DNA of 26,144 bases, taken from positions 1 through 26,144 of the IMG/VR virus record IMGVR_UViG_3300010401_000032; one strand, given 5' to 3'. The notes under the pieces were generated by a model. The model was not told where the DNA came from and ran no database searches. It saw only the letters and a list, made by a program, of their open reading frames with translations. Below, in pieces: positions 21,119-23,903 of this stretch. The number at the start of each line of letters is the position of its first letter. Position 1 is the first letter of the stretch. The position numbers were made by a program, and so were the translations under genes. Source of the DNA: a virus.

Positions 21119-21146
21119 ATTATACCCTAATGGAGGGGATAGTCAA
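21119..21146 (-). promoter_or_regulatory. Promoter TTGACT-16-TATAAT
   Basis: -35 TTGACT (21141-21146), -10 TATAAT (21119-21124), seven bases to ATG 21111. It overlaps the last codons of the GP88-like gene. Confidence 0.7.
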
Positions 21147-21477
21147 CCGTTTTCACAGACTTATCCCAGCACGCTCTACAATCCTGGCAGTTATTATTTT
21201 GTTGACGGGCGGGGCATTTGAAGTGAATGATTTTCGCCATGCCGTTTGCCCATTCCCGAACGTCGAATTGGACAATCGCCAATCGCCGGTATTGAGCTTT
21301 CTGTACGCACGGGAATACATACATTCCTTTCAAAGCGTAACACTTACTGCAAACGCTTCCGATTTTCTTTCTCAGGATTGCCCCGATGATACAAGCCTTT
21401 GCCGGTAGCCCATAGGCAAATCCCGGCATTTTAGAAGGCTTGGAAAGGCCGCCAACCAGTACGTCTAATCTTCCCAT
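21127..21477 (-). CDS. GP88-like protein, compact form, 116 aa
   Basis: The N-terminal part (GLSKPSKMPGFAYGLPAKAC, then GSVCSKCYALKGMYVFPCVQ) matches the phage GP88 family, and the C-terminus CQDCRACWDKSVKTVDYPLH matches the end of that family. As I recall, full members have a middle of roughly 100 residues (WHDSGD, LPTRE) that is absent here: REWANGMAKIIHFKCPARQ runs straight into the C-terminal Cys cluster. This looks like an in-frame internal deletion, possibly a decayed or specialised short form. The start overlaps the upstream gene by 13 bases. Confidence 0.65.
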   Translation of the reverse strand: MGRLDVLVGGLSKPSKMPGFAYGLPAKACIIGAILRKKIGSVCSKCYALKGMYVFPCVQKAQYRRLAIVQFDVREWANGMAKIIHFKCPARQQNNNCQDCRACWDKSVKTVDYPLH

Positions 21478-21680
21478 TTTACCAGCACATAAACGTAACA
21501 AAGGAAAATAATGACGACTAGGAAAACAAGGCACTGCCCAATTTGACGGAAGAAACGTATGATTGGACGCATTGCGTCAATCAAATCATCTTCTCTACCG
21601 TACTGAGCAAAGGGGACGTAAACGCTAGGCGGGGCACCGCGAACGCTGCCCCGCCTAGAGCCAACCGTATTTGAGGACAT
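21465..21680 (-). CDS. Small membrane protein, 71 aa, leaderless
   Basis: ATG 21680 lies six bases after a TAGACT -10. The N-terminal 40 residues are polar; residues about 47-68 (IGQCLVFLVVIIFLCYVYVL) are one transmembrane helix. It is probably an inner-membrane protein of unknown role. Confidence 0.65.
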   Translation of the reverse strand: MSSNTVGSRRGSVRGAPPSVYVPFAQYGREDDLIDAMRPIIRFFRQIGQCLVFLVVIIFLCYVYVLVKWED

Positions 21681-22401: not shown

Positions 22402-22429
22402 TTGACTAGCACGCAAGGCGTGCTATAAT
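22402..22429 (+). promoter_or_regulatory. Strong promoter of the structured RNA, with spacer palindrome
   Basis: TTGACT (22402-22407), spacer 16, TATAAT (22424-22429). The spacer is AGCACGC-AAG-GCGTGC, with arms extended into the -10 T. Predicted +1 at 22435-22436 coincides with the first base of the RNA's closing helix. Confidence 0.75.
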
Positions 22430-22435
22430 AAGGGC

Positions 22436-22586
22436 GTTCTTTGGTGCGAAAGCGTGTGCCATGGGAGGACGTCTCCAAGTCTGTGCCTCTATATGGGGCT
22501 AAGGACTAACATGGATTCGGGTTTACCGAGCCACCTAGCTGTAGGGTCATTGGCAGGAGTAACGAGCCAACATACAGTCAAAGAAC
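22436..22586 (+). ncRNA. Promoter-driven structured RNA, about 151 nt, family unknown
   Basis: The ends pair as GTTCTTTG (22436-22443) / CAAAGAAC (22579-22586). In between, six small helices follow one another: GTGC-GAAA-GCGT (22444-22455, GNRA loop), GGAG/CTCC (22464-22476), GCCTC/GGGGC (22485-22499) inside AGTC/GACT (22478-22507), TCGG/CCGA (22517-22529) inside TGG/CCA, CCTA/TAGG (22534-22545), and TTGGC/GCCAA (22550-22570). It starts at the +1 of a consensus promoter and ends 12 bases before the ATG of a small gene. It could be a stand-alone RNA or a 5' regulatory leader. I do not recognise it as tmRNA, 6S, RNase P or a named riboswitch. Confidence 0.6.
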
Positions 22587-22598
22587 ACTAATACAATC

Positions 22599-22817
22599 AT
22601 GGAAACCACCGATCCTACAAAGTACCGCGTCACTTATATTTGTAAGTGTTCAGCGGATTATGCAGAAGGCTACGGGAATACTCCCGAGGAAGCCGAAGGT
22701 AAAGTAAAGGAATTCTGGAAAATCGGCGGACATAAGATTGCCGATATCGCCAGTCGAATTGTTGAGATTGCCGTTATGCATGGAAATGGCGGATCACATT
22801 ACGAGGAAGTTACTTGA
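22599..22817 (+). CDS. Unknown protein, 72 aa
   Basis: The product METTDPTKYRVTYICKCSAD continues EGYGNTPEEAEGKVKEFWKI, a small alpha/beta protein with a helical C-terminus (ADIASRIVEIAVMHGNGG). No family is recognised. There is no Shine-Dalgarno; the ATG follows the structured RNA by 12 bases. A weaker promoter (TTGGCA 22550-22555, TACAGT 22573-22578) inside the RNA could give a short leader. Translation may depend on the RNA upstream. Confidence 0.6.
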   Translation: METTDPTKYRVTYICKCSADYAEGYGNTPEEAEGKVKEFWKIGGHKIADIASRIVEIAVMHGNGGSHYEEVT

Positions 22818-22841
22818 CTTCCAAGCTCAATGTGATATAGT
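22814..22841 (+). promoter_or_regulatory. Promoter TTGACT-16-TATAGT
   Basis: -35 TTGACT (22814-22819) overlaps the stop of the upstream gene; -10 TATAGT (22836-22841). Predicted +1 is near 22848, at the head of the gene-free structured stretch. Confidence 0.6.
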
Positions 22842-22847
22842 ATACCG

Positions 22848-23044
22848 TCCTAGCAAGAGAATCCGCGATTGGGACCTACCGTGTGGGTAGGATGGCCCCG
22901 CCCAATCCCGAGTAGCCGCCTTGAGCGGCGGGGCCGCTCCCGCCAGCCCGCATGGTCGCCCCGCCGTCACAGTAAGGCGAACTTGGATGAACCTGTGATT
23001 TTATTTTAGAAATTACAGTAAGGCGTATGCGGAGCCACCTGTAA
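22848..23044 (+). ncRNA. Second candidate structured RNA, GC-rich
   Basis: Downstream of a promoter and without a gene. GATTGGG (22867-22873) / CCCAATC (22901-22907) encloses CCTACC/GGTAGG (22875-22891). Next come mutually exclusive stems GCCGC/GCGGC (22915-22929) and GGCGGG/CCCGCC (22927-22944). The segment ends with two related 32-base hairpins. The extent is a guess from the promoter and the last hairpin; no clear terminator is seen. Confidence 0.45.
22967..23044 (+). repeat. Two copies of a 32-base hairpin element
   Basis: Copy 1 (22967-22998) is TCACAG-TAAGGCG … ACCTGTGA; copy 2 (23013-23044) is TTACAG-TAAGGCG … ACCTGTAA. The stem arms differ by a paired change (C:G to T:A) while AGTAAGGCG and ACCTGT are conserved and the middle varies. 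Confidence 0.6.
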
Positions 23045-23306
23045 TTTGAAATTTCACTTTGCTTGGAATGGTAAAATTCTAGATTCTGATTTCTAGATTT
23101 GACCCGGTATCTATTTAAAGCAAAGAAGCCGGCGATTCTGGCAATCTGCCGGCTCCTCAAGTGTGGCGAAAGTCCAATGTTATTCTTCCGCTTCCTACCG
23201 TCAATACTCAGGCTGCGATTTTATCAACTGACCGGAATATCAACGGTCGTCAGTTGCGTTGTTCGCTCTTTCAAAGCACACTACGGCAGGCGTTCGACTG
23301 TCGGGC
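23045..23306. other. Gene-free stretch downstream of the HNH gene
   Basis: No convincing gene. It contains a near-duplicate around TTCTAGATT (23075-23100), an inverted repeat AGCCGGC/GCCGGCT (about 23126-23154), and a longer dyad CAACTGAC … GTCAGTTG (about 23226-23256). These may be RNA ends of the neighbouring transcripts or marks of homing-endonuclease insertion. Weak open frames are present on both strands but lack starts or protein-like sequence. Confidence 0.35.
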
Positions 23307-23790: not shown

Positions 23791-23868
23791 TGGTGGCAGG
23801 GACGAGATTCGCACTCGTGGTCTCCTCCTTATGAGGGAGGCGTCGTAGCTAGACTGGACTACCCTGCT
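23791..23868 (-). tRNA. tRNA-Met (anticodon CAT)
   Basis: The full cloverleaf is present: acceptor AGCAGGG/CCCTGCC, a D arm with GTC/GAC, anticodon stem CCTCC/GGAGG with loop CTCATAA (anticodon CAT), variable loop AGACC, T stem ACGAG/CTCGT and encoded CCA. It is 78 bases long. Oddities: the first pair is A1·C72, unpaired as in initiator tRNAs (which usually have C1·A72), but pair 11-24 is T-A as in elongators and there are no three G-C pairs at the anticodon stem base. The T loop is TGCGAAT, with G where position 55 is normally U. CAT could also be modified to read Ile. Confidence 0.85.
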
Positions 23869-23874
23869 AATTAT

Positions 23875-23903
23875 ATTATATCTCAAAGAACAAGGAAAGT
23901 CAA
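23875..23903 (-). promoter_or_regulatory. tRNA promoter placed for a leaderless tRNA
   Basis: -35 TTGACT (23898-23903), 17-base spacer, -10 TATAAT (23875-23880), then exactly six bases to the first base of the tRNA (23868). Confidence 0.75.

Follow-up and report, generated by a model that had tools for sequence, protein, structure and literature searches.

Introduction

RNA C and RNA D of phage T4 are stable small RNAs that arise by processing of the phage's tRNA transcript. The 5'-terminal stem-loop of Escherichia coli ompA is established as an mRNA-stabilising element, as cited in PMC2777011. Leaderless transcription units, in which the -10 box adjoins the open reading frame (ORF), have been described in both phages and bacteria (PMC12340547, PMC3160421), and mycobacteriophages are known to have RNA-based prophage origins that involve a noncoding RNA (PMC7157519).

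In this study, we analysed a window of 26,144 nucleotides, bases 1-26144 of the 161,114-base uncultured phage record IMGVR_UViG_3300010401_000032 (hereafter G000), for which a preliminary description had proposed a promoter-driven structured RNA of about 151 nt and of unrecognised class. A relative of the G000 head protein is carried by 19 IMG/VR records (G001-G019); the comparison set consisted of 18 of these, read whole, with one 6.5-kb fragment left out. The head protein itself had no match among 50,697 isolate phage records.

Results

The G000 record carries at least 21 tRNA genes. A CUA-anticodon tRNA, labelled Pyl by ARAGORN, lies within a cluster of ~20 tRNAs (L006 2285-2361, record 42285-42361) and could possibly act as an amber suppressor in the phage. 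At 21127-21534 on the minus strand of the window, a GP88-like gene lacks ~90 central codons that most relatives keep, as seen from split tblastn matches.

The features of the locus are listed in Table 1. The dyad in the promoter spacer has counterparts of the form AGCACG-N-CGTGCT elsewhere in G000 (promoters 17581(-) and 18965(-)) and in relatives (G001 67888(-) and 64727(-), G006 10457(-), G007 2227(+), G009 49373(+) and G016 131312(-)). Regulation of the 22402 promoter is suggested because this spacer dyad recurs in relatives and occupies a repressor-binding position, and the dyad is probably the operator of a small phage regulon. The promoter at G007:2227 matches that at 22402-22429 with 96% over 24 nt, but the RNA downstream is not shared, and it was rejected as a homologous locus. 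In G007, the ~1 kb behind the same dyad promoter that separates a SprT-like gene from gp88 (L038 2227-3240) appears to be noncoding; its first 60 nt resemble, by eye, a G005 transcript ahead of the repeats (CGAGGACGSCGAGCG..AACAGSCG).

Promoter matches in the 19 related records numbered 363 in total, and the sample for the start-site ruler comprised 186 promoters with an ATG within 37 nt that opens an ORF of 30 codons or more. The ATG lay 5-9 nt past the -10 box in 150 of these 186 promoter-proximal ORFs, the commonest distance being 6 nt (80/186). Leaderless genes are widespread in this phage family, with a sharp -10-to-start ruler. The tRNA-Met gene at 23791-23868 on the minus strand, whose promoter is at 23903, has its 5' end (23868) 6 nt past its own TATAAT, coinciding with the +1 inferred from the ruler. 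By applying the same ruler to the 22402 promoter, +1 was placed at 22436, the seventh base past the TATAAT.

Table 1. Coordinates of the features at the locus (positions in the window).
Feature	Position	Strand	Basis or remark
Sigma-70-type promoter, TTGACT-16 nt-TATAAT	22402-22429	+	Sequence; scan, 11/12 matches to TTGACA/TATAAT
Perfect dyad AGCACGC-AAG-GCGTGCT filling the promoter spacer	22408-22424	.	Sequence; similar dyads in other promoter spacers
Noncoding 5' leader of the 72-aa gene, 163 nt (proposed)	22436-22598	+	Ruler +1; no terminator-like site; inner ORFs short, weakly coding
Closing helix, 5' arm (GUUCUUUG), 8 bp	22436-22443	+	Folding; shuffle test
Closing helix, 3' arm (CAAAGAAC)	22579-22586	+	Folding; pair probability context-dependent
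Inner hairpin with the best support, 5+5 bp and an internal loop	22478-22507	+	Pair probability 0.9-1.0
Inner hairpin UUCGG/CCGAG	22516-22530	+	Pair probability 0.85-0.99
Inner hairpin UUGGC/GCCAA	22550-22570	+	Pair probability ~0.85, four of five pairs
72-aa gene METTDPTKY...	22599-22817	+	Codon score in true-gene range; 49% identical relative L002
Promoter of the pseudoknot RNA	22814-22841	+	
Conserved pseudoknot element, including conserved CCGAGTAG	22846-22945	+	Common to G001, G002, G004, G006, G007
Pseudoknot P1	22867-22873/22901-22907	+	
Pseudoknot P2	22894-22900/22929-22935	+	
Pseudoknot inner hairpin	22916-22928	+	
Bipartite fixed-length repeat AGTAAGG-N12-CTKCTASRATTTT, two copies	22971-23002, 23017-23048	+	Behind the pseudoknot

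The preliminary description had reported a consensus promoter, a +1 exactly at the 5' base of an 8-bp closing helix, and a gene that lacks a Shine-Dalgarno (SD) sequence and starts 12 nt after that helix. The promoter was recovered, the ruler supports the placement of +1, the two arms of the helix are perfect complements, and both the 12-nt gap to the ATG at 22599 and the missing SD were confirmed. An 8-bp helix with a span of at least 100 nt and beginning at +1 to +3 arose in 7 of 5000 dinucleotide shuffles of the leader; since the comparison set holds 48 noncoding promoters, and so about 48 chances for such a helix, this rarity is suggestive and not decisive. Products of the noncoding promoters in the family begin with a helix of at least 7 bp in 8 of 48 cases, compared with 6.6% of shuffles. 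The pair probability of the closing helix was 0.93 for the RNA alone, 0.77 with 74 nt of the gene added and 0.24 with the whole ORF, and a local 5' hairpin (22436-22470) is favoured over the closing helix once the whole downstream ORF is modelled.

The 151-nt RNA has a minimum free energy of -51.9 and a z-score of -2.2 (-2.18), with 3 of 200 and 43 of 2000 shuffles as stable. Among equally long windows of this genome, a z-score of -2.2 or lower was reached by 15% of the 382 intergenic and 12% of the 150 coding ones; the folding energy lies within the genome background, and the fold as a whole is unremarkable here. Four inner hairpins (22464-22476, 22478-22507, 22516-22530 and 22550-22570) are firm, with pair probabilities mostly of 0.85-1.0, but several of the inner helices claimed previously are weak: the probability is 0.39 for the GNRA hairpin, 0.25 for the nested 5-bp helix and 0.49 for the hairpin at 22534-22545. 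The start region (22590-22599) was predicted to be mostly unpaired (~0.68-0.99) in every context modelled. The 22550-22586 hairpin resembles the reverse strand of the tRNA at 46451-46521 (peptide E = 0.017), which was judged to be chance.

The 72-aa gene is the sole clear coding sequence behind the 22402 promoter, and a scan of the plus strand found no terminator-like site between +1 and this gene. No intrinsic terminator or U-run follows the closing helix. With a promoter upstream and no terminator before the coding ORF, the stretch has the arrangement of a 5' leader of a coding gene. An IRES-like element had earlier been considered, but the absence of an SD is no sign of one, because SD-less and leaderless genes are common here, with an SD-like motif absent from 151 of the 224 called genes of this phage by a crude test. 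The protein had no match in Pfam or PHROGs. Its only credible relative (49% identity) is on another phage contig, L002, where the gene begins right at the stop of the preceding gene in an operon-like context with no leader; L003 was rejected as a short chance match within another gene. No further relatives were found in the 19 relatives, phages, plasmids or GTDB. Two short inner ORFs (22441/22444-22509 and 22511-22591) have codon scores of -0.03 and 0.01 per codon, within the range common to true and wrong frames, and their coding potential is ambiguous.

Searching the whole window with Rfam 15 (4227 models) at the gathering threshold matched only tRNA, and the region alone at E <= 10 gave chance-level matches to hveRNA (15.7 bits, cut-off 90) and HIV-1_SL3 (15.1 bits, cut-off 33), in agreement with the earlier description of the RNA as being of unrecognised class. 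For tmRNA and tRNA, ARAGORN and the Rfam models returned only the tRNA-Met at 23791-23868 on the minus strand. BLAST of the 22402 region against phages, plasmids and the relatives yielded no homologue. The structure (covariance) model R1, built from the single leader sequence, was run over the 18 relatives and, with default filters, over 621 kb, and the best other score was 8.9 bits (E = 6.3). Exact patterns taken from the RNA, three of them searched in IMG/VR and one in GTDB genomes, hit only chance sites, and none of the surroundings of these hits scored with the structure model. No leader homologue lies upstream of the L002 gene. These searches may omit records very near the window's own, so that very close relatives of the leader may exist unseen. 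Covariation of the leader helices is not computable, because the collections searched contain no homologue of the leader.

About 280 nt downstream of the closing helix is a conserved promoter-driven pseudoknot RNA (22867-22935), in which P1, P2 and the inner hairpin make up an H-type pseudoknot. In each of five relatives, the element lies upstream of a ribbon-helix-helix gene. Among six sequences, 98.9% of the cells in the arms pair and 10 of 16 pairs show two-sided changes, for arms that were excised by hand and fitted by eye (which favours structure) and that lie 0-1 nt from fixed neighbours. None of 500 shuffles reached this pairing level, and sliding the partners by one column halved the pairing. 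The pseudoknot RNA has no Rfam match, and a search for pseudoknots ahead of the repeats in the other relatives gave nothing better than shuffles did. The bipartite repeats behind the element form tandem arrays of 2-4 copies, clustered at a single locus, in 12 of the 19 related records and appear iteron-like. The slot between the ribbon-helix-helix gene and the pseudoknot element has different contents in each relative; in G000, it holds a small gene, the 22436 RNA and the 72-aa gene.

Discussion

Considering these results, we propose, at a probability of about one half, that the stretch 22436-22598 is a lineage-specific 5' untranslated leader of the 72-aa gene, with a 5' end that may be protected by pairing. 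The promoter, probably under the control of a dyad-binding phage protein, would start transcription near 22436, and transcripts should run into the 72-aa ORF because no terminator-like site on the plus strand lies in between. The first eight bases of the leader are predicted to pair with bases that closely precede the start codon. By analogy with ompA, this base-paired 5' end would slow 5'-end-dependent mRNA decay, and the A/U-rich start region would stay single-stranded for what is presumably SD-less initiation. The proposal builds on the promoter, the start-site ruler, the noncoding character of the stretch, the absence of a terminator and the predicted accessibility of the start codon. Against it, the only relative of the 72-aa gene has no such leader, and the closing helix is weakened when the full ORF is included. 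The sequence does not indicate a ligand-sensing or catalytic role for the leader.

Alternatively, behind a real promoter, the 163 nt might be a spacer free of structural selection, folding as any 151-nt stretch of this genome would. The z-score of -2.2, matched by 12-15% of genome windows, is consistent with this, as are the absence of the leader from all 18 relatives and the change of slot contents from one relative to the next; without a homologue, there is no evidence of selection on the leader or its helices. However, a long-range 8-bp helix at the +1 of the ruler was seen in just 7 of 5000 shuffles, even if some 48 noncoding promoters offered the chance, and we regard such a spacer as possible but doubtful. 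The coincidence of +1 with the end of the helix would also suit a stand-alone small RNA of ~151 nt, made with its mature 5' end, cut by host nucleases just past the closing helix and serving in trans or as a scaffold for protein. The tRNA-Met 1.3 kb away likewise begins at the +1 of the ruler, and a helix at the very start is somewhat commoner among the products of noncoding promoters in the family than among shuffles. Nevertheless, such an RNA is unlikely: neither an intrinsic terminator nor a U-run follows the helix, it has no homologue, and the 72-aa gene, with no other good promoter, would be left promoterless. Of the two possibilities raised in the preliminary description, a regulatory leader or a stand-alone RNA, a leader as such is retained and the stand-alone RNA is disfavoured, because there is no terminator-like site on the plus strand between helix and gene.

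A cis-regulatory element of the 72-aa gene (riboswitch, thermometer or protein-binding leader), in which the closing helix has a competitor in the 5' hairpin 22436-22470, could be imagined from the two mutually exclusive pairings of the 5' end, whose predicted balance moves with transcript length. Yet alternative pairings are expected of any RNA, and with no conserved core, homologue or Rfam match we consider it improbable. The same low standing is given to translational coupling, in which ribosomes would pass through the small ORFs 22441/22444-22509 and 22511-22591 and reach the 72-aa gene by reinitiation. The stop-to-start distances of 1 and 7 nt would fit, and reinitiation would account for the missing SD; but the codon scores fall where true and wrong frames overlap, no peptide homologue occurs in the relatives, and the first ORF has neither an ATG nor an SD. 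The promoter-driven noncoding RNA ahead of an SD-less gene is best kept as the leader proposed above, which matches no known RNA class. There is no support for making it a new class of structured RNA, given its ordinary folding energy and the lack of a homologue in the collections searched.

Taken alone, the leader carries little weight, since its fold is average and no relative shares it, which gives no basis for a new RNA class. Its value lies in its surroundings, since it led to the covarying pseudoknot RNA and the conserved repeats, which are directly testable; the pseudoknot RNA is the better candidate for a new RNA class. Furthermore, the 22402 locus shows that dyad-bearing promoters drive both genes and noncoding transcripts in this phage family. 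Because RNA-based prophage origins exist in mycobacteriophages (PMC7157519), it is a reasonable guess that the pseudoknot and the repeats might serve as a replication or maintenance locus. It is far-fetched, by our estimate, to join the 151-nt RNA with the pseudoknot RNA, followed by the repeats and with the linked ribbon-helix-helix gene, into one plasmid-like locus of RNA-based replication or maintenance. If this were true, replicon specificity or copy number would be determined by the variable first RNA or by whatever takes its place in the slot of the relatives.

Among known systems, T4 RNA C and RNA D resemble the 22436 RNA in being phage noncoding transcripts of roughly the same length near a tRNA gene. 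They differ in arising by processing of a tRNA transcript, whereas for the 22436 RNA neither processing nor homology nor a termination signal is apparent. Leaders of the ompA type share with the predicted fold of the 22436 leader a base-paired 5' end before a coding gene and an accessible start region. In ompA, however, local hairpins are combined with an SD, whereas the 22436 leader is SD-less and would rely on long-range pairing for any stabilising effect. The leaderless units described previously (PMC12340547, PMC3160421) have the same promoter type and follow the same spacing rule as those of the G000 phage family. In contrast to these units, the 22402 unit has no start codon at +1 and carries a 163-nt leader instead.
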